Source of the DNA: a virus
Virus record (IMG/VR): IMGVR_UViG_3300046694_000356
Location: 1 to 47,552 of that record
DNA: 47,552 nt
Direction: 5' to 3' (one strand)
This document shows positions 2,535 to 46,933 of the stretch, one piece after another. Each line of letters starts with the position of its first letter. The stretch's first letter is position 1. The translations under genes were made by a program, and so were the position numbers. The notes beneath the pieces were generated by a model that was not told the origin of the DNA, did no database searches, and saw nothing but the letters and a program-made list of their open reading frames with translations.

Positions 2535-3065
2535 ATGCCCGGAAGCCAGCTTGAACTGAAACGAGCCTTGTACGAACGGCTATATATCGCTGCCCAAGAC
2601 TTTGAAATGGCTCGCCAATACGCGGCGTTTCTGACCAGAAAGGGCTGGCACTCCGCACCGTATGAGCGAAGAGGCACCGTATACATGCAACAGTCGGCAT
2701 TCACTACCGCATTGGTGGTTAGCTATGCACGGCCGTTCACTAAGAGCTTCGGATGGCCACCGCTTCCAAATGAAATTGCAAGGTATGAGGAACCAGACCT
2801 GGAGATGCATGAATATCTTCTTGGATTGCGACACGAGGTTTACGCGCACTCTGACAGCTCACGCCACAGAGTAAGGCCTTTCCGAATAGGAAATGAATCG
2901 CTCACAGACCTCGTAGGAACACCCTTTCTCAGACTTTCGAAATTTGAATGCGAAATGGTCATATCTATGGTCACTTCCAAAATAAAAATGATCCATCCTC
3001 TGCTTACTCAACTTCGACAAGAGCTAGCAGAAACAGAACTCAATCACGCTCTTACTGGACAATAA
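2535..3065 (+). CDS. Small protein with R-x5-H motif, possible HEPN-like
   Basis: A 176-aa protein starting at ATG 2535 behind aagg. It is mostly helical in appearance (long charged stretches at the N-terminus and again at the C-terminus). Its central segment reads LGLRHEVYAHSDSS. An Arg followed after five residues by His in this setting resembles the catalytic R-x4-6-H of HEPN ribonucleases and of related 'xxLRNxxYAHSD' proteins. It ends 44 bp before the DUF262 gene, on the same strand. By position it may be part of the same defence-like unit, but that is inference. No Pfam family is recognised with confidence. Confidence 0.7.
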   Translation: MPGSQLELKRALYERLYIAAQDFEMARQYAAFLTRKGWHSAPYERRGTVYMQQSAFTTALVVSYARPFTKSFGWPPLPNEIARYEEPDLEMHEYLLGLRHEVYAHSDSSRHRVRPFRIGNESLTDLVGTPFLRLSKFECEMVISMVTSKIKMIHPLLTQLRQELAETELNHALTGQ

Positions 3066-3109
3066 AATTTTCTTATATTTTGTATCCAGCAATTAAAACG
3101 GAGATAGAA

Positions 3110-4267
3110 ATGCCCGGACATTTATCACTCGATGCAGAAAAGCCTGCACTGGGCTTCGAGGACGACATACCAGATGACACTCCTTACGAATCCGTAAAGG
3201 AGCGAAAGGTTCTAATCCAACCTTACGATTACGCAGTTAGAACACTAATGGACATGATCGTTGAAGGAGACTTAAAACTAGATCCCGACTATCAAAGAAA
3301 TTATCGATGGGACGATGAAAAAGCGTCACGCTTCATTGAATCAATTGCACTAAACATTCCTGTACCTGTCCTCTACTTCGCGGAAGAGCCCGACGGTTCA
3401 TTCAGCGTCATCGACGGCCAACAGCGCCTCACCTCTCTCTTCCGATACATAAAATTCGAGGAAGCCAAACATTTATTTCCAAACATAGATATCACAGAGC
3501 TAACAATAACAAAACTCAAGCTGCGGCCTGACCTTAACGAAAAAAAATTCCTATCTCTGGAAAGAGAAGACCGATCTCTAATTTCCAAGCGCCCCATCCG
3601 CTGCATCGTAGTGCTTAATGAATCCGACGCAACATTAAAGTTTGAGGTTTTTGAGCGCCTCAACACCGGCAGCTCTCAGCTCACCGAACAGGAGGTTCGT
3701 AACTGCATATACAACGGAAGCTTCAGCAAACTTATTAAAGAGCTGTCAAAAAACGATAAATATCTTCAACTCATATCACTGCCCAATACTGCCAAGAAAA
3801 ACATGACCGATGCAGAGCTAGTTCTCCGTTTCTTTGCATATAAAGAGCTCGACGACGACACTCAGTACCCAGACAACTACACCGAATACCTCAATACGTT
3901 CATGGAACACTATCGCTGGATTAGCCCTTCTCTTGCAGACCACTTCAGGACACTATTCAACAGCACCGTCGACATTCTTTACGACGCCCTCGGCCCTAAC
4001 GTCGCATTTCGAAAGCCATCTAACCTCGATCAGCCAGAAAGCTCAGGCTTTGCGACTAACTTGATTAACGGCTCGATATTCGAGTCGCAGATGGTGGCCG
4101 TTGCTAGACTATTGGAGAGCCGGCGCGAGTTACCCTCAGACCTGCGCACTCGCCTACTCTCTGGGTTTCTAGATTCTGGCTACAGAAGCAGTGTATTTCA
4201 GGGCACCGCCCAGAAATCCAAGGCTTTACGGAGAAACAAAATCCTAAGCGAGATAGTTGCTAGGTAA
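3110..4267 (+). CDS. DUF262 (ParB-like/GmrSD N-terminal) protein
   Basis: The start ATG 3110 has ggag (3100-3103) in front. The longer open frame upstream overlaps the previous gene and is not used. The 385-aa product has the DUF262 hallmarks: LDPDYQRNYRWDDEKASRF, then FSVIDGQQRLTSLFRYI (DGQQR near residue 101), and a later FERLNTGSSQLTEQEVRN. DUF262 is the NTP-dependent ParB-like module found in GmrSD type IV restriction proteins. Here the usual C-terminal DUF1524 HNH nuclease is absent, and the nuclease role is probably taken by the next gene, a HEPN protein. The two overlap or lie within 11 bp, so they are co-translated. Likely an anti-phage or anti-plasmid cassette carried by the prophage. 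Confidence 0.85.
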   Translation: MPGHLSLDAEKPALGFEDDIPDDTPYESVKERKVLIQPYDYAVRTLMDMIVEGDLKLDPDYQRNYRWDDEKASRFIESIALNIPVPVLYFAEEPDGSFSVIDGQQRLTSLFRYIKFEEAKHLFPNIDITELTITKLKLRPDLNEKKFLSLEREDRSLISKRPIRCIVVLNESDATLKFEVFERLNTGSSQLTEQEVRNCIYNGSFSKLIKELSKNDKYLQLISLPNTAKKNMTDAELVLRFFAYKELDDDTQYPDNYTEYLNTFMEHYRWISPSLADHFRTLFNSTVDILYDALGPNVAFRKPSNLDQPESSGFATNLINGSIFESQMVAVARLLESRRELPSDLRTRLLSGFLDSGYRSSVFQGTAQKSKALRRNKILSEIVAR

Positions 4268-4277
4268 GGGAACTACC

Positions 4278-5081
4278 GTGCAGTCCACTCAAAATTTAAA
4301 AGAAAGTTTGAATGATGTGATTCTTCTTGCTTCGGGGGCTGAAACCGAAATACTTAGCCACACATCTGAGGGAAGACAGAAAGGCAACGCAATGACGAGA
4401 GCAGGCATGGTTCTGCTTTGCGGCTACTTCGAAGGTTATATACGCGATGTAATTGCAGAATTTGCAGAAATCGTCAACGACGAAAAAATCAGCATCAACA
4501 TGCTTCCAGACGAGATCCTTTTATTCGCTCTGGAAGATATCGCATCCACAAACGGAACGAACAAACTCCAAGACTCGCTAAAACTACAAACCAGCATAGT
4601 ATCTGACTCACACTTTAAAATAAACGCCAAAAAACTTTCTAAAACAGGTGGGAACCCTACGGTCGACACCATAGAAAGCATTTTCTCCAAGCTTGGCATT
4701 TCAAACATCATCGACACACTATCCATCGAAGACTTCGGAATTTCCAGCACTTACACTAGAGAATCCCAAGCCCTTGTATTACGCGCCAAAATAGAAGAAC
4801 AAATTATAGAGCATGCCCAACAGTTTAATTCGTCTTTGACAGATCATATCGTCTCGATTATCGAGGAAAAATGGGCACCAACACTCAAAAGGCGACAGAT
4901 CGGATATGTGTTTGCCATCGGAGAAATATTAAGAATTAGAAACCTCATCGCTCACGGTGAAGGGCGAGAGCCGGTAGCTCCTACAGATCTTCTAGAACAT
5001 ATTACAATCATAGAAAATCTTGTCTTTGGACTTGATAAAAATCTAAACAATCTTCTAGCCCGGATTCGTACATCGGCGTGA
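4278..5081 (+). CDS. RiboL-PSP-type HEPN protein (MAE_28990/MAE_18760 family)
   Basis: GTG 4278 is chosen because aaggga lies about 7 bp upstream; a TTG at 4257 inside the previous gene is less likely. The 267-aa protein has an N-terminal helix with AGMVLLCGYFEGYIRDVIAEF, typical of this HEPN group, and a C-terminal ILRIRNLIAHGEG (near residue 220). The latter contains the R-x4-H ribonuclease motif (RNLIAH). HEPN proteins of this type are predicted RNA-cleaving effectors in defence and toxin systems. Directly downstream of DUF262 it probably forms a two-component system, with DUF262 as sensor or regulator and HEPN as effector. It ends 18 bp before the convergent umuC stop. Confidence 0.85.
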   Translation: MQSTQNLKESLNDVILLASGAETEILSHTSEGRQKGNAMTRAGMVLLCGYFEGYIRDVIAEFAEIVNDEKISINMLPDEILLFALEDIASTNGTNKLQDSLKLQTSIVSDSHFKINAKKLSKTGGNPTVDTIESIFSKLGISNIIDTLSIEDFGISSTYTRESQALVLRAKIEEQIIEHAQQFNSSLTDHIVSIIEEKWAPTLKRRQIGYVFAIGEILRIRNLIAHGEGREPVAPTDLLEHITIIENLVFGLDKNLNNLLARIRTSA

Positions 5082-5099: not shown

Positions 5100-6374
5100 T
5101 TATTTCACGGTCCACAGTTCATTCAAGCACGTCGTGTAACTTGGGCTTTTAAGCTCACGCCGCATTCCCCAATCAGGTAAGCCCGGGACGCCGCCCGGGC
5201 GAACCGTTCCCCTCCCCCATTTCGCATTGATCCGGTCCATCACACTCATCACCCGCTCACTTGCCTCCGGCTGCACCTGGGCAAACATGTCGTCGGTAAA
5301 CTCGCCGCGCTGACGGAGGTCGATCAGCAGGATCTCGGCCTTGCTGTATTTGAAGCCCTCCCTAAACACTTCCTCCAGGCCGGCCATGGCCGCTTTGGTG
5401 ATGATCCTGGTGTCATCTGTTGGATATGGCAGCTCGCACACCACTCCCCGGGCGAACTTCGGCTCGTCAGGATTGAACATGCCCGTGCGGATGCTGACCC
5501 TCACCTTCTTGCACAGCGAACCCTGGCCTCGAAGTTTCTCGCAGGCTCTGGCGGCGTAGGTGGCCACCGCCTCTCGGATGGGCTCAATGGCCGTCAGGCG
5601 CTTGCCGAACATCCGGCTGCAGCAGATCTCCTGCTTGGGCGGCGCCACTTCCTCCAGTTCCATGCACGGTGTGCCGCGCAATTCCCTGGCAGTCTTCTCC
5701 ACCACCACGCTGAACTGTTTTCGCAACGTCCAAGGATCGGCCTGAGCCAGGTCCCAAGCGCTTTTAATGCTCATGCTGGTCAGGTGTTCAGTCATACGCC
5801 GGCCGATGCCCCAGACGTCGCTGACCTCGCACGCCTTAAGCAGCTTGTCCCGCCGCTCCGGGTCGGTGATGTCCACCACTCCGCCGGTTTGGCGCTGCCA
5901 GCGCTTCGCTGCATGATTTGCCAGTTTCGCCAGGGTCTTGGTCCCGGCGATGCCAACACCAACCGGGATACCCGTATAGCGCTGCACTTTCGACCGGATC
6001 TGGCGACCCAGGGTTTCCAGGGGAACGGTCATCCCGGTGAGGTCGCAGAAGGCTTCGTCGATACTGTAAATCTCCACTGCCGGTACCAGGCTTTCGATGA
6101 CCGTCATGACGCGCTGGCTGAGGTCGCCATAAAGGGCGTAATTGCTGGAGAACGCCACGATGCCGTTCGCCTCCAGCTTTTCCTTAATTTGGAAATATGG
6201 CTCGCCCATTTTCACAAACGGCTTGGCATCGGCACTGCGGGCGATCACACAGCCGTCGTTGTTGCTGAGCACCACAATTGGCACTCGAAGCAGGTCAGGT
6301 CGAAACACCCTTTCGCAGCTGGCGTAGAAGCTGTTGCAGTCCACCAGGGCGAAGCACGGCCTATGCTCGGGCAT
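5100..6374 (-). CDS. umuC: UmuC-like error-prone DNA polymerase V catalytic subunit
   Basis: A 424-aa Y-family polymerase, the normal length of UmuC. The N-terminus reads FALVDCNSFYASCERVFRPD (first catalytic Asp and the steric-gate region), followed by SNNDGCVIARS and, near residue 105, YSIDEAF with the second catalytic acidic pair. The little-finger part ends with the UmuC-type C-terminus. It carries out translesion synthesis when partnered with UmuD'. The start ATG 6374 overlaps the end of umuD by 14 bp, so the two are translationally coupled and expressed from the LexA-box promoter at 6818. It is a phage-borne copy; whether it is active in the host is unknown. Confidence 0.95.
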   Translation of the reverse strand: MPEHRPCFALVDCNSFYASCERVFRPDLLRVPIVVLSNNDGCVIARSADAKPFVKMGEPYFQIKEKLEANGIVAFSSNYALYGDLSQRVMTVIESLVPAVEIYSIDEAFCDLTGMTVPLETLGRQIRSKVQRYTGIPVGVGIAGTKTLAKLANHAAKRWQRQTGGVVDITDPERRDKLLKACEVSDVWGIGRRMTEHLTSMSIKSAWDLAQADPWTLRKQFSVVVEKTARELRGTPCMELEEVAPPKQEICCSRMFGKRLTAIEPIREAVATYAARACEKLRGQGSLCKKVRVSIRTGMFNPDEPKFARGVVCELPYPTDDTRIITKAAMAGLEEVFREGFKYSKAEILLIDLRQRGEFTDDMFAQVQPEASERVMSVMDRINAKWGRGTVRPGGVPGLPDWGMRRELKSPSYTTCLNELWTVK

Positions 6375-6798
6375 GGGAGTGGCTTCGGATGCTGTACAAG
6401 ACCACGCCCCAGATCACCAGCTCATCGGACTCGAACACGTACCGCGGTGCGAAAAGGGGGTTCTCTGATTGCAGGATGAACTGATCGCCCTCCTTGCCCA
6501 GCGTCTTGATCAGCGGTTCGTTGTTGAGGGCTGCGATGACGATCAGGCCGGGCTTCGGCTCGACGGAGCGATCCACCACCACCAGGTCACCATCAAATAT
6601 CCCGACGCCGGTCATGCTGTCGCCGCCGACCCTGGCGAGAAAGGTTTGGGGAAGACGCAGGCCCAGCAGCTCGTCGAGGGAAATTTCCCGCTCAATATGG
6701 TCCTGCGCCGGCGATGGGAACCCGGCCGGAACGGTGAATGAGTAGAGCGGCAGACGCCGCCCCTGAACATTTATGTGTCCAAGGTAGTCGATTGACAT
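6361..6798 (-). CDS. umuD: UmuD-like S24 self-cleaving protein
   Basis: 145 aa, the normal size. The cleavage site VPAGFPSPA is present (Ala25-Gly26), as are the catalytic Ser61 in GGDSMTG and Lys98 in EPLIKTL. After RecA-stimulated self-cleavage, UmuD' binds UmuC to make polymerase V. The gene is first in the umuDC operon, directly behind the LexA box. The N-terminal domain is short and carries no helix-turn-helix, which separates it from phage repressors of the same peptidase family. Confidence 0.95.
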   Translation of the reverse strand: MSIDYLGHINVQGRRLPLYSFTVPAGFPSPAQDHIEREISLDELLGLRLPQTFLARVGGDSMTGVGIFDGDLVVVDRSVEPKPGLIVIAALNNEPLIKTLGKEGDQFILQSENPLFAPRYVFESDELVIWGVVLYSIRSHSHARA

Positions 6799-6817: not shown

Positions 6818-6833
6818 CTGTGTATTTATACAG
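6818..6833. promoter_or_regulatory. LexA (SOS) box shared by umuDC and the SRAP gene
   Basis: The sequence ctgtgtatttatacag fits CTG-N10-CAG with an AT-rich palindromic centre, the LexA operator consensus of gamma-proteobacteria. It lies 20 bp upstream of umuD on the minus strand and 59 bp upstream of the SRAP start on the plus strand. One operator can therefore repress both directions until DNA damage. Confidence 0.88.
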
Positions 6834-6891
6834 TAATGCGGCGAGATCAGTCCGACAAGGTGGACTGACGAACAGCAGGCAGGAGAAGACG

Positions 6892-7620
6892 ATGTGCGGG
6901 CGCTACGCGAAAGAGCAGGACCTGGACAGATGGCGGGACGTGCTGGCGATCATGCAGCCAATAGAGGACCTAACCGACCCAGCTGCTGGCCCGAGGTACA
7001 ACATCGCCCCAACCCAGAAGGCGCCGATCATCTACGACACGGGGAATGGGCTGGCGGCCGAGGCCATACGCTGGGGATGGGCGCCGCATTGGGCGAAGGA
7101 AAGGAAGATGCCGCCGGCGATCAACGCCAGGGTGGAGACGGTGGCCACCGGTAACTTCTTCCGGGCGATCTGGAAGCACCGTGCACTTGCGCTGGCCGAT
7201 GGCTGGTTTGAATGGGTGAAGCACCCGGACGACCCGAAGATCAAGCAGCCCTACTTCATCAAGGCCAAGGACGGGGCACCCCTGTTTTTCGCCTCGATCT
7301 GCCAGGTCACCCAGGGCCTGGAGCAAGCGGAGGATGACGGCTTCACCATCATCACCGCCGCGGCAGACTCCGGCCTACTGGATATCCACGACCGTCGCCC
7401 CGTAGTGCTGCCGCCGGAACTGGCCGCCGAATGGATCGACCCCGGTACCGAGCCGGCCAGAGCGCTGGAGATCGCAGCCGACCAGGGCTTGGGTGCCGAG
7501 GCCTTCATCTGGTACCCGGTGCCAAAGGCAGTGGGCAGCCCGCGCAACCAGGGGCCGGAGCTGATCGAACGCATTGCAACGCCGTTGTTCCCCCTGCCCG
7601 ACATTGAGGCCCGTCGCTAG
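6892..7620 (+). CDS. SRAP-domain protein (YedK/HMCES family), abasic-site crosslinker
   Basis: The start ATG 6892 has aggagaag in front and puts Cys at position 2, which is essential because the initiator Met is removed and Cys2 bonds covalently to abasic sites in single-stranded DNA. The longer frame from 6820 would abolish this. Other catalytic residues are present: Asn78 in INARVET, Glu107 in WFEWVK and His166 in DIHDRRPV. Length is 242 aa, near the E. coli YedK length. It shares the LexA box at 6818 with umuDC, so it is likely damage-induced. It ends overlapping the convergent methyltransferase stop by 4 bp. It protects stalled ssDNA at abasic sites. Confidence 0.92.
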   Translation: MCGRYAKEQDLDRWRDVLAIMQPIEDLTDPAAGPRYNIAPTQKAPIIYDTGNGLAAEAIRWGWAPHWAKERKMPPAINARVETVATGNFFRAIWKHRALALADGWFEWVKHPDDPKIKQPYFIKAKDGAPLFFASICQVTQGLEQAEDDGFTIITAAADSGLLDIHDRRPVVLPPELAAEWIDPGTEPARALEIAADQGLGAEAFIWYPVPKAVGSPRNQGPELIERIATPLFPLPDIEARR

Positions 7621-8411
7621 AACAGCCCACCAAGCGCAGCCGGCTCCCAGTTCATGATCACTAACTCCCCTGACGCTTCGGGCCTGGACGAACGCTGATT
7701 GCTGTTGCTGTAGCGAATGTCCAATTGCTCGAAATGGAAGCCGGCGAAGACCCGGCGAATATCAGGGTGGTCATTGATGCTGACCATCACCTTGCCTTTA
7801 CATTGGCGCATGAAGCTCGCCATTCGCTCGTAGTTTTCAAACGGAAAGTCCACGCCGTACCCCTCAGTCTGCCAATACGGCGGGTCCATGTAATGGAATG
7901 TGTGGGGGCGGTCGTAGCGCTCTGCGCACTCCAGCCACGAGAGGTTCTCCACATAGGTGCCCGCCAAGCGCTGCCAAGCCGCAGTCAGACTCTCTTCAAT
8001 GCGCATGATGTTGAAACCGGAACCGGTTGTGGCGGTACCGAAGTTTTGCCCCGTCACTTTTCCACCAAAAGCGTTGTGCTGCAGGTAGAAGAAACGAGCA
8101 GCACGCTGGATGTCGGTGAGTGTCTCGGGGCGGGACATCTTGTGCCAGTCGAAAAGTTGCCGGCTGGTGAGTGCCCACTTGAATTGGCGAATGAATTCTT
8201 CGAGGTGGTTTTGCACAACTCGGTACAGCGACACCAGGTCACCGTTGATGTCGTTCAGTATCTCCGTCGGCGCCGGCTGGGGCCGAAGGAAGAACAACGC
8301 GGCTCCCCCGGCGAAGACTTCGACGTAGCACTCATGTGGTGGGAAAAGCGGGATAAGGCGGTCGGCCAGGCGGCGCTTGCCGCCCATCCAAGGGATGATT
8401 GGTTGGGTCAT
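7617..8411 (-). CDS. D12-class DNA N6-adenine methyltransferase (Dam-like)
   Basis: The start ATG 8411 is preceded by aaagg; a TTG two codons upstream is less likely. The 264-aa protein has the SAM-binding N-terminus PWMGGKRRLADRLIPLFPPH, then EVFAGGAALFFLRP, and the catalytic DPPY at residues 176-179. This is the order of Dam-type (alpha class) methyltransferases. No restriction nuclease partner is next to it, so it is an orphan enzyme that may hide phage DNA from host restriction or alter replication and gene control. The LexA box at 8426 lies 15 bp before the start, suggesting induction by DNA damage. The target sequence cannot be read from the protein by eye. Confidence 0.9.
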   Translation of the reverse strand: MTQPIIPWMGGKRRLADRLIPLFPPHECYVEVFAGGAALFFLRPQPAPTEILNDINGDLVSLYRVVQNHLEEFIRQFKWALTSRQLFDWHKMSRPETLTDIQRAARFFYLQHNAFGGKVTGQNFGTATTGSGFNIMRIEESLTAAWQRLAGTYVENLSWLECAERYDRPHTFHYMDPPYWQTEGYGVDFPFENYERMASFMRQCKGKVMVSINDHPDIRRVFAGFHFEQLDIRYSNSNQRSSRPEASGELVIMNWEPAALGGLF

Positions 8412-8425
8412 TTGCAAACCTTTTA

Positions 8426-8441
8426 CTGTATGAATAAACAG
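8426..8441 (-). promoter_or_regulatory. LexA (SOS) box upstream of the adenine methyltransferase
   Basis: The sequence ctgtatgaataaacag is CTG-N10-CAG with an AT-rich centre. It sits 15 bp upstream of the methyltransferase start. It is the second SOS operator in 2 kb of prophage. Confidence 0.8.
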
Positions 8442-8447
8442 TGCTAA

Positions 8448-8550
8448 TCTCGCCCCGCTTCGTGCACGGGGCGGGAGACTTGGCTGGGCTTGCAGGAATG
8501 GTCTGCGGGTCTGGATGTCGGCCAGCGGTGTTGACGCACCTTGGCCGACA
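8448..8550 (-). terminator. Two hairpins after the lysis genes
   Basis: Downstream of the spanin on the minus strand there is a perfect 9-bp inverted repeat (tgtcggcca at 8516-8524 with tggccgaca at 8542-8550). It is followed by a GC stem cgccccg/cggggcg (8451-8457 with 8467-8473). Neither has a clear T run, so intrinsic termination is uncertain. They may separate late transcription from the SOS-controlled methyltransferase gene. Confidence 0.4.
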
Positions 8551-8557
8551 GCTCCTT

Positions 8558-9070
8558 TCAGGGAGTTAGCGAGTCGTATCTTGCTTCGCAGGTTGATCCC
8601 CTAATTCGGTTGTCGTCGGCGACACCAGCATAGAATTGAACAGCCGTTCCGATCCGGCCAAGCAGCTCGGCACGCATTCTTGCTTCTGCGTCTGCTGACG
8701 CGCCGAGCTGGGAAGTGATGGTATTGCCGCACTGACGTACTCGCAGCTCCGCGATTGCGACACGCTGCTGCAACCGCTGCAGTGCATCGCTAGCGCGACC
8801 AGCATCATCTTCGGCCTGAGCCAGTTTGCTTTCTGCATCGCTGTCTATCTCCCCTGCCGCACCCAAGCGACGTTTCGTTTCATTAAGCGCGCTGAGTGCC
8901 GCCCGCCGATCACGTTCGGCAACCTCGGTTTTGAAACTGCTTAGAGAAGCTTTCGCTTCGGCTGCACTGGCCTGCGCATCGCTGACGCGCAGTTGCTGCA
9001 ACCCCAAGAACAAAAGGCCGACCACGGCCGCGAGAGCCCATTCCGGAACCAATTTCAACAAAGAACTCAT
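8558..9070 (-). CDS. Rz-like inner-membrane spanin (DUF2514 type)
   Basis: The start ATG 9070 overlaps the endolysin stop by 4 bp (ATGA). The 170-aa protein has an N-terminal signal anchor (LVPEWALAAVVGLLFLGLQQL, about residues 6-26). A long Ala/Glu/Arg-rich coiled coil follows, then a C-terminal region with RQCGNTITSQL and a late Cys. This is the layout of phage i-spanins that fuse inner and outer membranes in the last step of lysis. It is last in the late operon together with the endolysin. An alternative frame inside it may encode the lipoprotein partner. Confidence 0.8.
   Translation of the reverse strand: MSSLLKLVPEWALAAVVGLLFLGLQQLRVSDAQASAAEAKASLSSFKTEVAERDRRAALSALNETKRRLGAAGEIDSDAESKLAQAEDDAGRASDALQRLQQRVAIAELRVRQCGNTITSQLGASADAEARMRAELLGRIGTAVQFYAGVADDNRIRGSTCEARYDSLTP
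8566..8838 (-). CDS. Possible embedded Rz1 lipoprotein (o-spanin)
   Basis: Within the Rz gene, in another frame, an ORF of up to 90 aa begins MQKANWLRPKMMLVALAMHC then SGCSSVSQS. This resembles a lipoprotein signal: basic n-region, short hydrophobic core, and a Cys after Ser-Gly. Embedded Rz1 genes are common in phages. Against it: the -3 position of the lipobox is Cys, the protein is not notably proline-rich, and no clear ribosome binding site is visible. Confidence 0.22.
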   Translation of the reverse strand: MQKANWLRPKMMLVALAMHCSGCSSVSQSRSCEYVSAAIPSLPSSARQQTQKQECVPSCLAGSERLFNSMLVSPTTTELGDQPAKQDTTR

Positions 9071-9714
9071 GCCAGAACTGCCTTGGCCGATTCCCACAGC
9101 GCCTCGCGATCATCTTGACCAGTCAGGCCACCATTGATACGCCGCGTGATCGCCTCAAATTTGCCAGCGTCGGCCAGCTCGTTCAGCCCGTGCTCTTGCC
9201 AGAACCAGGCCGCCGATAGCGCGGCATACAGCGGCTGCTCTAACAACTGCGGGATCTGCTCAAGATTCATCCCGAGAGCTAGGCCGGCGGCACGGTAGTT
9301 CGCCCGACCGGTTATCTGGATCAGGCCGCGTCCGCGGTAGCGCCAACCATCCCCGGACGACTCTGGCCCGTTCCCCATTCGGCCGACATAGGCCCGATTT
9401 GCCAGTGCTTCGGGGTTGCGGACATAGCGCTGCGCATCCGCCACTTCTTCAGGATCGACGCGGGCGTTTCGGTTGGCATCGAATCCATGCCGGAAGATCT
9501 GGGCTATCCGGGTGGCATCCTTGTAGTACAAGCTCTCGCTGAGTTTCAGCAGCTGGCTACTTTCGTGGCCGACTTGGGCCAGAAATGCGGTTGCCCGAAC
9601 CGGTGAATCGATACGAAAGCGCGCCATGGCTTGGTTGAGCGCAGATACAAAAACGCCCGCAACAGGGCGGGCGTTTGGCATAATCAGTACAAGTTTCTCT
9701 GTTGTTAAATTCAT
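9067..9714 (-). CDS. Endolysin, glycoside hydrolase family 19 (chitinase-like)
   Basis: 215 aa. The GH19 signs are FLAQVGHESSQLLKLSESLYYK (with the catalytic Glu of the GHES motif), YVGRMGNGPESSGDGWRYRG, and RGLIQITGRANYRAAGLALG, then a C-terminal helix bundle. No signal peptide is seen, so it needs a holin to reach the cell wall, where it cleaves peptidoglycan. It precedes and overlaps the spanin gene. The holin-type genes lie far away at 32606-33330, so the lysis functions are split over two places in the late transcript. Confidence 0.93.
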   Translation of the reverse strand: MNLTTEKLVLIMPNARPVAGVFVSALNQAMARFRIDSPVRATAFLAQVGHESSQLLKLSESLYYKDATRIAQIFRHGFDANRNARVDPEEVADAQRYVRNPEALANRAYVGRMGNGPESSGDGWRYRGRGLIQITGRANYRAAGLALGMNLEQIPQLLEQPLYAALSAAWFWQEHGLNELADAGKFEAITRRINGGLTGQDDREALWESAKAVLA

Positions 9715-9760: not shown

Positions 9761-10651
9761 ATGACACACCCCCCTTACTCTGAAGTTGAATTTGATACCG
9801 CCGACCAGTTGTGGGACGCACTAAGCCCGACACTAATGCCCGCCAACGCAGATGAATTTATATATCGGGGACAAGCGAATGCAGACTGGGGCCTAGTACC
9901 TTCCATACTAAGAGCGAGTCAGACGTTAAACGATTTCAAGAGCGGATTTGAGTCCAGTGATAACCAAGTTTTTTTAGAGCTTATTTCCCTAATTAGATTT
10001 GTAGACGCATGCGACCGATTGGGTCTTGCGATTCCGAACGACTCCAGATCGTTTAGGCGTGAACACTTAGACTCTGACAGAGCAGACAAATATTTTAAGA
10101 AACCCGAGTTATGGCCTAACGACGAGATCCTCGACCTAATGGCCATGGCTCAGCATCATGGCGTTCCTACTAGGCTTTTGGATTGGACGAGGCAGCCTTA
10201 TACAGCGGTCTACTTCGCTGCGAGTAGCGCCCTCCCAAATTATGTTTCTTGGACCAAAGAATCTCGTCTGTGCATATGGGCACTTGACAGTTCACGCTTC
10301 CCCCATTACCCGAAAGTTCGTTTACTTAAAACTGCAGGATCCGCGAGCCCACACTTAGCTGCGCAAAGCGGAGTATTTACAGTGCACCCTCATAATGGTG
10401 AAAGAGGAAAGCCCTTCACGGTAACGGACTTGTGCGATGAGTTTACGTCCCTTGAAAAAACTCCTCTTCAGAAAATATCTATACCCTGTTATGAAGCGAA
10501 TCGCTTACTTAACCTTTTAAATAGGGCAGGTATCTCGGCAGCTACAATTTATCCCTCCGCTGACGGCGCTGGGAAAGTAGTTCTGGATGAAATGGCAGCG
10601 GCTGCTGCGGTCGAGCACCACAATAAGAAAGAGATACTTGTTCGCAGTTGA
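9761..10651 (+). CDS. FRG-domain protein, prophage cargo (moron)
   Basis: 296 aa with a ribosome binding site aaagga before ATG 9761. FRG-domain signs are FIYRGQANADWGLVPSILR near the N-terminus, and then AQHHGVPTRLLDWTRQPYTA followed by VYFAASS in the middle. The family takes its name from the F-x-RG motif and its biochemical role is unresolved; it is common in mobile and defence-rich regions. The gene runs opposite to all surrounding late genes, is visibly richer in A and T, and sits exactly between the endolysin and the tail tip genes. That fits a lysogen-expressed moron with its own promoter in the 9715-9760 AT-rich gap. A role in defence is plausible but not shown. Confidence 0.85.
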   Translation: MTHPPYSEVEFDTADQLWDALSPTLMPANADEFIYRGQANADWGLVPSILRASQTLNDFKSGFESSDNQVFLELISLIRFVDACDRLGLAIPNDSRSFRREHLDSDRADKYFKKPELWPNDEILDLMAMAQHHGVPTRLLDWTRQPYTAVYFAASSALPNYVSWTKESRLCIWALDSSRFPHYPKVRLLKTAGSASPHLAAQSGVFTVHPHNGERGKPFTVTDLCDEFTSLEKTPLQKISIPCYEANRLLNLLNRAGISAATIYPSADGAGKVVLDEMAAAAAVEHHNKKEILVRS

Positions 10652-38583: not shown

Positions 38584-39258
38584 ATGGCGATTTCAGGGCA
38601 GCTGATAGGTCAGCTGCTGACGACCAAGTTGGCCGAGAAGGGCTGGTCGGAAGGCGAGCTCGGACGCCGTTCTGGTGTTTCCCAACCGACAGTTCACCGG
38701 ATACTTCACGGTGACTCTAACAATCCACGAATCGACAATGTGATGAACATCGCCAAAGCCCTAGGCTTGGACGGTGCCGCTTTACTCAGCGGAAAACTCG
38801 CTACGGATTATGACGAGAATGTCATTGCAGGCCCCGCCATTGTTGGCCGGGTACCTCGGTTGTCTTGGGTGCAGGCAGGCGCCCTAAGTGAGGCTATTGA
38901 TTTGTTTGAACCGGGCTACGCGGAGGAATGGCTGGATTGTCCGTTCCCGCACAGTAAGAAAGCTTATTGCCTTGAAGTGCGCGGGACCAGCATGTTCCCT
39001 GACTACCGACCAGGTGAGTTGATCGTTGTTGAGCCTATGCTCGAAGCGATGCACGACGATGACGTGGTTTGTCGAACCCCGGATGGTCTAGCGACGTTCA
39101 AGCGCCTTCAGGTCACCGAGGACGGCACCTTTCTCTTGGCCCTTAATCCCGACTTCCCGAATCGGATCATTACTGTCCCAGAGGACACCGAGATCTGCGG
39201 GGTCGTTACCGGCTCTTGGATGAAAAGAAGGCATCGCGCCCACAACTTTAATTCATAG
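38584..39258 (+). CDS. CI-type repressor (HTH and S24 peptidase)
   Basis: 224 aa. N-terminal HTH: LAEKGWSEGELGRRSGVSQP then TVHRILHGDSNNPRIDNV. C-terminal peptidase: cleavage site WVQAG (Ala98-Gly99), catalytic Ser136 in GTSMFPDY and Lys173 in LATFKRLQ. RecA-stimulated self-cleavage after DNA damage would induce the prophage. The gene begins 14 bp after the proximal operator palindrome. Confidence 0.93.
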   Translation: MAISGQLIGQLLTTKLAEKGWSEGELGRRSGVSQPTVHRILHGDSNNPRIDNVMNIAKALGLDGAALLSGKLATDYDENVIAGPAIVGRVPRLSWVQAGALSEAIDLFEPGYAEEWLDCPFPHSKKAYCLEVRGTSMFPDYRPGELIVVEPMLEAMHDDDVVCRTPDGLATFKRLQVTEDGTFLLALNPDFPNRIITVPEDTEICGVVTGSWMKRRHRAHNFNS

Positions 39259-39591: not shown

Positions 39592-39914
39592 ATCCCGTTA
39601 TCGAAAAACTCGTCCTGCAGATCGCATACATTTGTCTGCACATCACCGCGCAAGGCAAATGGCACGCGCATTTCGGTATTAGCGCCCATTGCCGAACCCT
39701 GAACGTGTACGTGTGGCCGTCCACTCGCAATTACGTGGACGGCGAGTCTGGAACTCCGGCATTGAGCCGATTTATCAGTTACCAGGCCAAGCCACGAGCC
39801 GCAGAAAACGCCGCCGCCCCTGTGTCAGAGCTGGCATATGAGCCAGCGTTACAGTCGCTTCTCTCAGACCTCGAACCCTTCCTGACTCCAGTTGCTGAGG
39901 TGGCCTGCGCATGA
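39588..39914 (+). CDS. Unknown early protein, 108 aa
   Basis: The start follows ggaggtgacgcagc and overlaps the previous stop. The protein has KWHAHFGISAHCRTLNVYVW and WPSTRNYVDGESGTPALSRF. No known motif. Its stop overlaps the dNMP kinase start by 4 bp. Confidence 0.65.
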   Translation: MNPVIEKLVLQIAYICLHITAQGKWHAHFGISAHCRTLNVYVWPSTRNYVDGESGTPALSRFISYQAKPRAAENAAAPVSELAYEPALQSLLSDLEPFLTPVAEVACA

Positions 39915-40480
39915 GCCAGATCCTTATCGGCCTCGCAGGGCGCGCCCGCGTTGGCAAAGACACCGTCGCCAGCTATCTGGCAGCACACCTCATCCTCATC
40001 AGCTACGCCTTTGCCGATCCCCTTAAGCAGGCACTGGCGGGGCTATTCAGCCTCACCACCGCGCAGCTGGAAGGCGCTGAGAAAGAGCTTCCTCTGGAGT
40101 GGCTTGGCAAGTCGCCGCGCGAGCTGATGCAGTTGCTCGGTACCGAGTGGGGTCGCGACTTGGTGCACCCTCAGCTTTGGCTGCTGCTGGCGGAGCAAAA
40201 CCTTCAGGCACTGGCGGAGCTGAATCAGGACATGCAGGGCGTGGTGATTCGCGATGTGCGCTTCGACAACGAAGCGGCGTGGGTGCGCAGCAAAGGCGGT
40301 GTGATTGTTCACATCACCCGCCCGGATGCATCCGACGTCGCACACCACATCAGCGAGAGCGGAGTTACTCCCTGGCCCGGCGATCACCTGGTGGTCAACG
40401 ACGGACCGCTCGAACAGCTGTACGACGATCTGGAAGGCCTCATCCAGGCGTTGCAAAGTAAAAGCCGCCACGCTGCCTGA
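39911..40480 (+). CDS. Deoxynucleoside monophosphate kinase-like P-loop protein
   Basis: 189 aa. Walker A GLAGRARVGKDTVAS near residues 7-21, a following FADPLKQALAGLF helix, and IRDVRFDNEAAWVRSKGG in the C-terminal part are typical of the phage dNMP kinase family (T4 gp1-like). It would phosphorylate dNMPs, recycling nucleotides for phage DNA synthesis. Confidence 0.85.
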   Translation: MSQILIGLAGRARVGKDTVASYLAAHLILISYAFADPLKQALAGLFSLTTAQLEGAEKELPLEWLGKSPRELMQLLGTEWGRDLVHPQLWLLLAEQNLQALAELNQDMQGVVIRDVRFDNEAAWVRSKGGVIVHITRPDASDVAHHISESGVTPWPGDHLVVNDGPLEQLYDDLEGLIQALQSKSRHAA

Positions 40481-41416: not shown

Positions 41417-41902
41417 ATGAACCCAATAGCTATCGCTGCAATCGCTGTCGCAGCCAACATAATCGCCCTGCTCGCGCTCGCCGCCTGGGCGCTCTTCAAG
41501 GCAGAAAAAGCCCGCACTACCGGCTACGACGAGGGGTACGAAGACGCCTCCAGAATTGGTCACGACTTGGGGGTAAGCTTGGAGTTGCGCCTAGACGCCG
41601 CACAGATCCGTATCAAGGAACTGCTGGAGGAGCAGGAGTCAATCACACAGGAGGCAGACCGCCGCATCGCTCTTTACGCTGGGCACAGCTTTGTCTCTGA
41701 GGACATTAAGCTGTTGCTCACCGCAGCAACCCAGCTGAAAACTGCTGCCCGCACCTACGCCGCTTTCCCTAATGCCAAACTCGCCGCGCCATCGCGACAA
41801 GCTCAGGCGACAGTCGATCAGTTGTCCATGCTCATCGCGCGCATTCAGCAACTGATGGAAAGCGGCCAGGCATTTGGCTCGATGCTGGAGGCCCGCCCAT
41901 GA
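41417..41902 (+). CDS. Membrane-anchored coiled-coil protein, 161 aa
   Basis: An N-terminal transmembrane helix (AIAAIAVAANIIALLALAAW, residues 5-25) is followed by a long charged, heptad-like region (EDASRIGHDLGVSLELRLDA and on). This suggests an inner-membrane protein with its coil in the cytoplasm. No family recognised. It overlaps the HD gene by 4 bp. Confidence 0.7.
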   Translation: MNPIAIAAIAVAANIIALLALAAWALFKAEKARTTGYDEGYEDASRIGHDLGVSLELRLDAAQIRIKELLEEQESITQEADRRIALYAGHSFVSEDIKLLLTAATQLKTAARTYAAFPNAKLAAPSRQAQATVDQLSMLIARIQQLMESGQAFGSMLEARP

Positions 41903-42444
41903 CTTGGATTCTCACCCGCCTCGGCAAACGTTTCGATCTGTTGAGCCCTTCTGCGTCCATGGTTGAGCCCGCCGATATCGCGCACGCGCTGAGCATGCTG
42001 TGCCGATTCAATGGGCACTCCCGCGCGTTCTACAGCGTGGCACAACACAGTTACCTAGTTGCCGATCTGGTGCCCGCGCAATACCAGCTAGAAGCCCTGC
42101 TACATGACGCGGCAGAGGCATACGTTGGCGACTTGGTGAGCCCGCTCAAGCAGCTACTGCCTGAGTACCGACAGATCGAGCATCACGTCTGGCACGCCAT
42201 CTGCGCTCGCTTCCAGATCAATCCGGTATTGCCCCCCTGCGTTCACGACGCCGACCTGGTGGCGCTGGCCACCGAGCGTCGTGACCTCATGCCCGCCCAC
42301 GGCGAGCCCTGGCACAGCCTGATTGGCACGGCCCCTGCCCAAGCGCGAATCAAGCCCTGGACCCAGCCAGAAGCGGCGCAGTTCTATTTCGACCGCCTGA
42401 TGTCCCTGCTGGCAACAACACACCGCGCGAGGGCCGCAGCATGA
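41899..42444 (+). CDS. HD-domain phosphohydrolase (YfbR-like 5'-nucleotidase family)
   Basis: 181 aa. HD motif residues: CRFNGHSRAFYSVAQHSYLV (His), ALLHDAAEAYVGDLVSPLKQ (His-Asp), and a later VHDADLVALATERR (Asp). This is the YfbR type, which removes phosphate from dNMPs. With the dNMP kinase in the same operon it points to control of nucleotide pools. Confidence 0.85.
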   Translation: MTWILTRLGKRFDLLSPSASMVEPADIAHALSMLCRFNGHSRAFYSVAQHSYLVADLVPAQYQLEALLHDAAEAYVGDLVSPLKQLLPEYRQIEHHVWHAICARFQINPVLPPCVHDADLVALATERRDLMPAHGEPWHSLIGTAPAQARIKPWTQPEAAQFYFDRLMSLLATTHRARAAA

Positions 42445-43965: not shown

Positions 43966-44955
43966 ATGACGACTACCAACATCGTCAGCGTCTCAGGGGG
44001 AAAAGACTCAACCGCCACCCTGCTGGTGGCCATCGCCCGTGAAACGCCCAACCTGCAGGCCGTGTTCGCCGACACCGGCAACGAACACCAGCAGACCTAC
44101 GAATACCTCGACTATATCGAGCAGGCGACAGGCGTCGGCATCACGCGTGTACGAGCCGACTTCACTAGGCAGATCGCCGGGAAGCGAACTTTCATCGCGA
44201 CCAAATGGCGCGAGCAGGGGATTGATGAGGCGGTAGTTCTGGCCGCGCTGGATGTGCTCCAGCCCACTGGTAACCCCTTCCTGGACCTGTGCATCTGGAA
44301 GGGTCGCTTTCCAAGCCGAAAAGCCCAGTTCTGTACCATGGAGCTGAAGCGTGACCCGATGCTGGAACAGGTTGTAATGCCGCTGCTGGGCCAGGGCGAC
44401 ATGATCTTGAGCTGGCAAGGCGTTCGACGTGACGAGTCGTTGAACCGCCGGTACCTGCCCGAGTGCGACGAGGTAGGCGGCGGCCTGTTCAATTATCGCC
44501 CCATCCTCAAATGGGATATCCCGGCCGTTTTCGAGGCCCACCGGTACATGGGCATCAAGCCCAACCCCCTCTATTCCCAGGGCATGGGGCGTGTTGGCTG
44601 CATGCCCTGCATCAACTGCCGGAAGGATGAGCTGCGAGAAATCGCCTTACGCTTCCCCGAGGTGATCGACCGCATCGACCGTTGGGAACGTCTTGTGCAG
44701 CAGGCCAGCAAGCGCGGCGCCGCGACGTTCTTCGCAGGCTCCAACGCCGTTTCGGTACGCGGGCCCATTGCGGAGATGAGCGCCCTGCAGGTGATGGAGA
44801 TTGCCAGTATTCGCCAGGCCGTAGAGTGGTCGAAAACCGCGCGCGGCGGCATCCAATATGACCTGATGATTGCGACTGACGCGACGACATGCAGCAGCTC
44901 CTATGGATTGTGCGACAGCGATTCGTCACACCTATCCCCGCGGGAGGCAGCATGA
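43966..44955 (+). CDS. PP-loop ATPase of the PAPS reductase/DndC-like family
   Basis: 329 aa. The PP-loop SVSGGKDSTATLLVAI is near residues 7-22. It is followed by FADTGNEHQQTYEYLDYI and a Cys-containing GMGRVGCMPCINCRKDELRE that could bind an iron-sulfur cluster or zinc. Phage proteins of this group adenylate and modify substrates in sulfur or DNA/RNA modification; the substrate here is unknown. The start has ggagg and overlaps the preceding short + frame. It is coupled to the 44952 gene. Confidence 0.85.
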   Translation: MTTTNIVSVSGGKDSTATLLVAIARETPNLQAVFADTGNEHQQTYEYLDYIEQATGVGITRVRADFTRQIAGKRTFIATKWREQGIDEAVVLAALDVLQPTGNPFLDLCIWKGRFPSRKAQFCTMELKRDPMLEQVVMPLLGQGDMILSWQGVRRDESLNRRYLPECDEVGGGLFNYRPILKWDIPAVFEAHRYMGIKPNPLYSQGMGRVGCMPCINCRKDELREIALRFPEVIDRIDRWERLVQQASKRGAATFFAGSNAVSVRGPIAEMSALQVMEIASIRQAVEWSKTARGGIQYDLMIATDATTCSSSYGLCDSDSSHLSPREAA

Positions 44956-45700: not shown

Positions 45701-46837
45701 CTACGCCTTCCCTTTCCTCTCCGCTCGCGCGCCGAGCTCTACCGGCGCCGCAATGATCCGCTCCAACCACGTCCACCCTGCATAGGGGTCCCCTCTTCCT
45801 CGAAGGTGCGTATAGCGCCGCAGCGAATTCCAATCTCGGTGGCCAGAGACGCTGGCCACGCGGGGTATATCCCACTCCATTTCGAAAAGCCGACTGACTC
45901 CATCGTGGCGCAAATCATGGAAGTGGAGATCCTCGATCTCAAGGAACTTGCAGGCCTTTCGCCAAGCTGTACCGATAGAGTCGCCGTTGTACGGAAAGAT
46001 CTCAGGGCATACCCGCGGCATAGACTCGATTATTCGCATAGCCTCGACAGGCAGGTGACACCAAACGTCATTACCGATCTTCTGCCCGGGGTTCTTCATA
46101 TCGCGTACCAAAACCCGCTGGCCCGCTACATCGAGATCGGCCCAGCGAATTCGGGTTATCTCTTCCTGCCGGCGGGTAGAGAAAATGGCGAAGGCGGAAA
46201 CCTTACCCATGTGGATTGCCGTTGGCTTCCACCGCATCATTTCAAAGAAATGAGCCAGCAGCCTGTCCAGTTCCTCGCCCTCTGGTCGTCGGTCGCGCTC
46301 GTTGCTTTTGCTCACCGCCCCCAGTTTGCGGAGAACCTTGCGCGCGTCAGAGATAGCGTGGGGATCGATCTCATACCCCCACGCGGGCCGGGCTACTGAG
46401 AGCACCGCTCCCAAGTGTGCCAGGTCATTGCCAATGGTTTGCGACTGAACCCCTCCGCCCTCTGGCGACATTCGCCATTGACCGAACTCCACCAGTTTCT
46501 GACTACTGAGATCGGTATCCGCAACCTGGCCAAGCCATGTTGCTGCAATGGCCTTAAGGCATTGGCGCTTGGTTTTCCCCAGCGGCCGGATGCGTTCGTA
46601 CTCATCCAGGTAACGATCAATGATGTCGGTGAGCAACTCACCCTTACGGTTAGCTCTCGCAATGGCACCCGGCTCGGACAGCTCAGCCTCTCGCCTGCCG
46701 GCCCAGGCCTTAGCGGTCTGCTGCCGGTCGAATGTTTGGCTTTCCTGATAGACTTGCTCGCCATCGCGCATGATCCGAATCTGCGCTGTATAGCCGAAGG
46801 TCCCGTCCTTGCGTTTCCGTTTCCTGATCGTTGCCAT
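45701..46837 (-). CDS. int: Tyrosine site-specific integrase
   Basis: ATG 46837 (MATIRKRKRKDGTFGYTAQI) is the probable start; the frame runs on to 46849. The 378-aa protein has the N-terminal arm-binding domain, a core-binding region, and a catalytic domain with Arg in FSTRRQEEITRIRWADLD (near residue 222), His-x-x-Arg in LHFHDLRHDGVSRLFE, His in VSGHRDWNSLRRYTHL, and the nucleophile Tyr in the last motif. It is next to attR and should catalyse integration into dusA. Confidence 0.95.
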   Translation of the reverse strand: MATIRKRKRKDGTFGYTAQIRIMRDGEQVYQESQTFDRQQTAKAWAGRREAELSEPGAIARANRKGELLTDIIDRYLDEYERIRPLGKTKRQCLKAIAATWLGQVADTDLSSQKLVEFGQWRMSPEGGGVQSQTIGNDLAHLGAVLSVARPAWGYEIDPHAISDARKVLRKLGAVSKSNERDRRPEGEELDRLLAHFFEMMRWKPTAIHMGKVSAFAIFSTRRQEEITRIRWADLDVAGQRVLVRDMKNPGQKIGNDVWCHLPVEAMRIIESMPRVCPEIFPYNGDSIGTAWRKACKFLEIEDLHFHDLRHDGVSRLFEMEWDIPRVASVSGHRDWNSLRRYTHLRGRGDPYAGWTWLERIIAAPVELGARAERKGKA

Positions 46838-46933
46838 GATTTGGTACATGAGTCACTGGGGTTGGTACGATGTACCAGAGACACGACGAAAACAAGCGAA
46901 AACGGCAGAAAACGGCAGTAGATAGAAAGCTTA
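46838..46933. promoter_or_regulatory. int/dusA divergent control region with candidate arm sites
   Basis: It contains ttggtacatg (46841-46850) and ttggtacgatgtaccaga (46862-46879), related to the palindrome at 679-694 near attL, and direct repeats of aaaacggcag (46900-46919). It must hold the integrase promoter leftward and the replacement promoter for dusA rightward. Confidence 0.45.

Follow-up and report, generated by a model that had tools for sequence, protein, structure and literature searches.

Among the described systems closest to the locus reported here is com-mom of phage Mu, in which a late phage DNA-modification gene is gated at the RNA level. In Escherichia coli, LexA, SymR, and Lon keep the toxin gene symE tightly repressed until the SOS response (PMC1891008). 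LexA motifs are also known ahead of other phage genes, including dinI-like genes and umuDC of temperate phages, with the operator lying a few nucleotides upstream (PMC7556043). Neighborhoods in which umuDC is associated with SRAP have already been described (PMC3765255), and prophage methylase genes of Acinetobacter rise after mitomycin C, within prophage induction (PMC3978071). The gene of interest here, encoding a prophage adenine DNA methyltransferase (MTase), can be likened to mom for the RNA element in front of it, and to symE for its LexA box and a leader hairpin whose apical loop is the same. It differs from Mu com-mom by the addition of a LexA operator; from the dinI-like and umuDC cases in that the target is a DNA methyltransferase; and from symE/SymR in that the product is an MTase rather than the SymE toxin, and in that the leader comprises three hairpins and a long-range helix. 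Our reading, to which we assign a probability of roughly 0.6, is that this orphan MTase would be kept silent in the lysogen by stacked LexA and leader controls.

The window, i.e., the whole 47.5-kb virus record that was analyzed (IMGVR_UViG_3300046694_000356; 47,552 nt), represents a temperate Pseudomonas-type phage with an integrase, a CI-like S24 repressor, and a terminase gene identified by profile annotation (Table 1). The MTase is the last gene of the leftward lysis operon, after Rz (spanin); SRAP is convergent with the MTase and divergent from umuDC. These gene assignments are firm. Membership in Pol V (UmuDC) is indicated by curated UmuC and UmuD models, both above cut-off; UmuC has IMS, IMS_C, and DUF4113 domains (PF00817, PF11799, PF13438), and the UmuD translation retains the A-G cleavage site (VPAG), the GDSM serine, and the lysine. 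The SRAP protein begins MCGRY, with the catalytic Cys2, and contains the N, E, and H motifs. For SRAP, the start at 6820 (GTG) given by the mechanical open reading frame is unlikely since it falls within LexA operator 1, and the ATG at 6892 is preferred.

Table 1. Features of the window, with strand and supporting detail.
Feature	Position	Strand	Detail
umuC, Pol V catalytic subunit	5100..6374	-	NF002955, 530 bits (cut-off 431)
umuD	6361..6798	-	NF007621, 121.3 bits (cut-off 110)
LexA operator 1 (candidate)	6818..6833		CTGTGTATTTATACAG; 26.1 bits, top site of window
SRAP/YedK-HMCES family	6892..7620	+	PF02586, 180 bits
D12-class N6-adenine DNA methyltransferase, orphan	7617..8411	-	PF02086, 86.5 bits (cut-off 22)
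MTase RNA leader, whole element	8412..8558	-	Covariance model R1 match 8558-8406, 142 bits, the window being one of the 69 training rows
Long-range helix, 3' strand	8413..8420	-	GGUUUGCA; covers end of Shine-Dalgarno-like AAAAGG just before ATG
LexA operator 2 (candidate)	8426..8441		CTGTATGAATAAACAG; 22.0 bits, second-best site of window
Hairpin 3	8446..8480	-	AGUCUC...GAGAUU
Long-range helix, 5' strand	8487..8494	-	UGCAAGCC; just after hairpin 2, pairs with 8413-8420
Hairpin 2	8492..8506	-	GCAG-N7-CUGC
Hairpin 1	8516..8550	-	Long variable stem, conserved apical loop UG-CGUCAA-CA
Rz (spanin)	8558-9070	-	Leftward lysis operon
Endolysin	9067-9714	-	Leftward lysis operon
CI-like S24 repressor	38584-39258	+	
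Integrase	45701-46849	-	

The first-pass annotation had placed one CTG-N10-CAG site between the divergent umuDC and SRAP genes and another ahead of a Dam-like gene. Both sites are where it put them, the first inside the 93 nt that separate the start of umuD from that of SRAP, and the second ending 14 nt before the ATG of the MTase. The bare pattern is common in the GC-rich window (32 occurrences vs. 18.8 expected), and counting it was therefore dropped as evidence; for the same reason, a LexA matrix was built from host genes only. This matrix (20 nt) covers LexA sites of the CTG-N10-CAG type, and was trained solely on lexA and recA promoters, taken from 30 Pseudomonas host genomes in which relatives of the MTase occur; in these genomes, lexA has two boxes and recA one, invariably at the expected position. 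The hosts encode the usual LexA, and nearly all encode a second, more distant copy. Motif scoring, which had been suggested as a check, gave these two sites the highest scores of the window (Table 1), within or above the range of the training sites (19.8-25.8 bits), with the third-best site at 12.5 bits; in 300 simulated windows, no site reached the score threshold of either operator. A search of the window with a fixed half-site LexA consensus pattern gave no match, and no sigma-70-type promoter was found in the window around either box. The matrix scores support a genuine operator of the LexA type both at umuDC/SRAP and at the MTase.

The two strong operators lie 1.6 kb apart, and had been taken to make Pol V, SRAP, and the MTase one functional team within a single SOS mini-regulon. 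Consistent with that proposal, the umuD gene is preceded by a box at each of the 36 loci that carry it, among 117 loci for which 4.5 kb or more of downstream sequence was available. However, the full set (MTase box plus umuDC/SRAP) is present at only 29 of the 117, as against 92 with an MTase box; umuD and SRAP occur together at 32. The control of the MTase is thus a module of its own, and a three-member team is a decidedly improbable explanation: the pair of LexA-type operators stands, but not the single functional unit. The umuDC-SRAP part is ordinary in gene content.

The MTase box is a recurrent feature of related phages. Among 137 distinct upstream regions, drawn from 160 close relatives, the window, and two phages, 106 have a box-like palindrome in the same position, 13-19 nt ahead of the ATG; in a wider set, the box is at the same place in 96 of the 123 distinct leaders of the Pseudomonas clade to which the window belongs. 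SOS control of an adenine methyltransferase had been described as not a usual finding; by these counts the LexA box at the MTase is no oddity of one phage. No precedent for LexA with a phage adenine methyltransferase was found in the open-licence literature. In a tree built on 133 MTases, boxed rows occupy all early branches of the supported window clade (29 rows, 100/98), and the tree puts the origin of the predicted box at the base of this clade; later losses are found where the leader has been replaced (L086-like and L021-like loci). A separate boxed clade (L285, L286, L288, and L290; 100/99) has a different leader, to which the RNA-leader covariance model (see below) gave no match; the box is TACTGTATATCCGTACAGTA in L288 and L290, with a near-identical copy in L285 and L286. 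The starred branches of the tree require at least five changes of box label. Given the boxed window clade and the independent boxed clade, we infer at least two gains of LexA control in this MTase family.

RNAalifold pairs the CUG of the palindrome with the CAG, as it might if the palindrome were an RNA hairpin or a hitchhiking sequence rather than a LexA operator. This explanation is very improbable, given that the palindrome is missing from most other clades that have the RNA element, was gained separately in a clade in which the model detects no such element, and matches host LexA sites at 22 bits. Moreover, variants such as CTGG...ACAG track recA boxes and break the hairpin; at locus L019, the box is CTGGCTATCCATACAG, resembling CTGGCTACTTATACAG of host recA. 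Judged by their letters, the box variants obey the rules of LexA sites and not those of RNA pairing. The leader and MTase also occur without a LexA box (L086 and similar loci, e.g., L089, L092, L013, L024, and L093); in L086, they lie directly behind a portal gene, so that the cassette of leader and MTase moves from one phage position to another.

The MTase matches phrog_56 at 329 bits and contains motifs I (FAGG) and IV (DPPY; DPPYW). It shares the D12 fold and the FxGG and DPPY motifs with Dam, DpnM, and T4 Dam, but differs from them as an orphan, prophage-encoded enzyme that scores below the cut-off of the curated Dam model (TIGR00571; 104.7 bits vs. 114.85) and, in alignment with DpnM, lacks the GATC-contact segment (R..FNVP.G; FNVPYGRYK-type of DpnM/Dam). 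GATC specificity is therefore unlikely, and the earlier description as "Dam-like" is true of the fold only. Non-specific adenine MTases of prophages were reportedly described by Drozdz in 2012; for the enzyme of the window, non-specific activity is only a possibility. Tblastn matches for which the Acidovorax Aval enzyme was the best-matching query were set aside, being fragments or having wrong starts.

The 147 nt that separate the Rz stop from the MTase ATG contain no conserved reading frame that could be found, and form three hairpins together with a long-range helix to the ribosome-binding region (Table 1), a structure that is far better kept among relatives than is the sequence. The window leader has a folding z of -5.7 against 200 shuffles, and its minimum-energy fold includes the long-range helix. 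In the window clade alone, 12 of the 14 pairs of hairpin 1 show compensatory changes. The A2 alignment, which is model-based, fitted to the structure, and so leans toward it, has two-sided changes in all 34 pairs and a covariation of 0.499 vs. 0.153 after shuffling; in this alignment, 99% of hairpin 2 cells are paired and all four of its pairs change on both sides. Because hairpin 3 reads AGGCUC...GAGCCU in most relatives, the form found in the window is compensatory. The covariance model R1, constructed from 69 leaders of the clade, gave 71 matches in 96 divergent loci, of which 70 are on the MTase-sense strand, immediately upstream of the MTase or of a com gene that precedes it. Covariation of the leader extends across phages of several proteobacterial genera. 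R1 matches were identified in 39 of the 99 Pseudomonas genomes sampled, and in 29 of 30 loci from R1-positive Pseudomonas genomes the MTase is the next gene. No family of Rfam 15 matched the leader at the gathering threshold. The leader is very probably a functional RNA, and this uncatalogued structured RNA is a more important find than the mini-regulon. As a second layer of control, it had been missed by the first-pass annotation.

The long-range helix is conserved in pairing while its letters change: UGCAAGCC/GGUUUGCA in the window; UGCAAGCC/GGCUUGCA in Meadow; GUGAGCC/GGCUUAC and GUGAGCC/GGCUCAC in loci grouped with the Klebsiella KP12 enzyme; CGUGUCC/GGACACG (S1-type); and GUGGG/CCCAC (Halomonas). 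In an alignment-free swap test, in which the helix segments were exchanged among 43 divergent leaders, the mean duplex energy was -10.5 for native and -8.1 for swapped combinations (z -7.3), and none of 20000 permutations was as good as the native set. Wobble changes in this helix are of the G-U rather than the A-C kind (26 vs. 2), indicating that it acts in the sense RNA. The leader probably holds down translation of the MTase by means of the long-range helix. A point against this reading is that computed accessibility of the Shine-Dalgarno sequence, 0.46 with the leader, is equally 0.46 with a shuffled leader, and only moderately higher (0.57-0.58) in shortened transcripts; the calculation thus does not set the leader apart from shuffled sequence. 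These values would also be compatible with an alternative whereby the hairpins only mark off a mobile MTase cassette from the lysis genes, as a boundary or terminator devoid of translational control. The element does sit behind unrelated genes (spanin in the window, the portal gene in L086). But no intrinsic terminator was found in the sense direction of the leader, the helix to the ribosome-binding region covaries over deep divergence, and the element is also present upstream of com in com-MTase operons, so that a mere boundary function is improbable.

Hairpin 1 shows another pattern. Its wobble changes are predominantly A-C (75 vs. 32 G-U), i.e., wobble on the antisense strand, and its antisense side is followed by a T-rich tail (mean of 4.05 vs. 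1.23 T in 9 positions), suggesting that the element may in part act through the opposite strand; on the + strand, hairpin 1 looks like an intrinsic terminator for an antisense RNA. The leader could accordingly be, in the main, the site of a SymR-like antisense RNA that begins close to the MTase start, on the opposite strand, stops at hairpin 1, and keeps the MTase from being translated until outrun by SOS transcription. In two independent leaders, the antisense strand gives full-length, sub-threshold matches to the Rfam symR family (RF01809). The same apical loop (UG-CGCCAA-CA) is present, together with a LexA box, at the symE leader/symR terminator of E. coli; symE is under LexA and SymR control (PMC1891008). 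In addition, 43 of 59 distant leaders have the motif ANNNTA (TANNNT in antisense) past hairpin 3, vs. six expected. Conversely, the best symR score is 29.8, far under the gathering threshold of 61, and is confined to two relatives, with no symR match to the window leader; R1 has no match at symE/symR of E. coli; the long-range helix changes by G-U and not A-C, which argues for action on the sense strand; and neither a convincing -35 element in the leaders nor marked synonymous-site constraint at the MTase start, such as an overlapping antisense promoter would impose, was found. An antisense promoter is thus weakly supported, and an antisense RNA as the principal function of the leader is unlikely, albeit the strongest of the alternatives considered; that an antisense RNA ends at hairpin 1 is slightly more likely, a serious possibility though still below even odds. 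A SymR-like antisense RNA and a leader that holds down translation may coexist. The terminator loop of E. coli symR (L558:2336-2412) is the exact reverse complement of one phage hairpin-1 loop.

In the proposed mechanism of stacked controls, host LexA would occupy the box upstream of the MTase start codon in the lysogen; repression of the MTase by LexA in this state is very likely. Read-through mRNA from the lysis genes would carry the three-hairpin leader, in which the strand after hairpin 2 would pair with the ribosome-binding region, such that translation is held down. Cleavage of LexA during SOS would make transcription into the MTase possible, simultaneously with prophage induction. A putative mRNA with its 5' end at the LexA box or close to it would be without the upstream strand of the helix and hence might escape the hold, a step that we advance tentatively and rate at a little under even odds. 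The lysozyme gene e of phage T4 follows a comparable logic. By analogy with symE/SymR, hairpin 1 might also terminate an antisense RNA of the other strand. The MTase would then methylate replicating phage DNA shortly before packaging, so that this DNA is protected when the next host restricts it, and the lysogen would be spared unwanted methylation; marking of phage DNA against restriction is the purpose we somewhat favor.

Two Pseudomonas aeruginosa phages, UMP151 and phipami28, carry this leader ahead of com, which is followed in turn by a member of the same MTase family, and in the B3 phage, which has com, there is a leader match ahead of com. Com (PF10122) is present in relatives, but had no match in the window, and R1 had no match in the com-mom region of Mu; at most, control of the MTase works like that of com-mom. 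At the remaining one of the 30 loci from R1-positive Pseudomonas genomes (L555:1501-3059), the same leader is followed by com and then by an ABC-ATPase/GNAT gene in place of the MTase. It is about an even chance that an undescribed leader-RNA family, perhaps with a SymR-like antisense RNA, is a common control of DNA-modification operons (MTase, com-MTase, and com-ATPase/GNAT) in temperate phages of proteobacteria, with LexA control added to the MTase in Pseudomonas and, separately, in a second lineage, giving SOS-gated modification of the phage genome. Because both controls recur in many related phages, damage-triggered marking of DNA looks like a real and widespread phage strategy. Modification of phage DNA would then be directly linked to the response of the bacterium to damage, one and the same signal both releasing the phage and turning on its DNA-marking enzyme. 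The leader adds an uncatalogued cis-regulatory RNA before DNA-modification genes in phages of several proteobacterial genera and in approximately 40% of the Pseudomonas genomes sampled, and the old question of how DNA-modifying enzymes are silenced in the lysogen is now testable beyond phage Mu.

Several other genes of the window have possible roles in defense or nucleotide metabolism. Beside umuC, a GmrSD_N/DUF262 protein (2948-4267, + strand; PADLOC NsnA, 255 bits; PD-T4-2_A, 154 bits) is followed by a HEPN protein (4257-5081, + strand), and the pair is probable anti-phage defense cargo. An FRG-domain protein (9761-10651, + strand), a PADLOC candidate (PDC-S15), is encoded between the lysis and tail genes, on the opposite strand. 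A PAPS-reductase-like protein (43966-44955, + strand), similar to SspD/BrxP/DndC, possibly has another DNA-modification or nucleotide-pool function; genes for a dNMP kinase (39911-40480) and a dNMP phosphatase (41899-42444) are located nearby.
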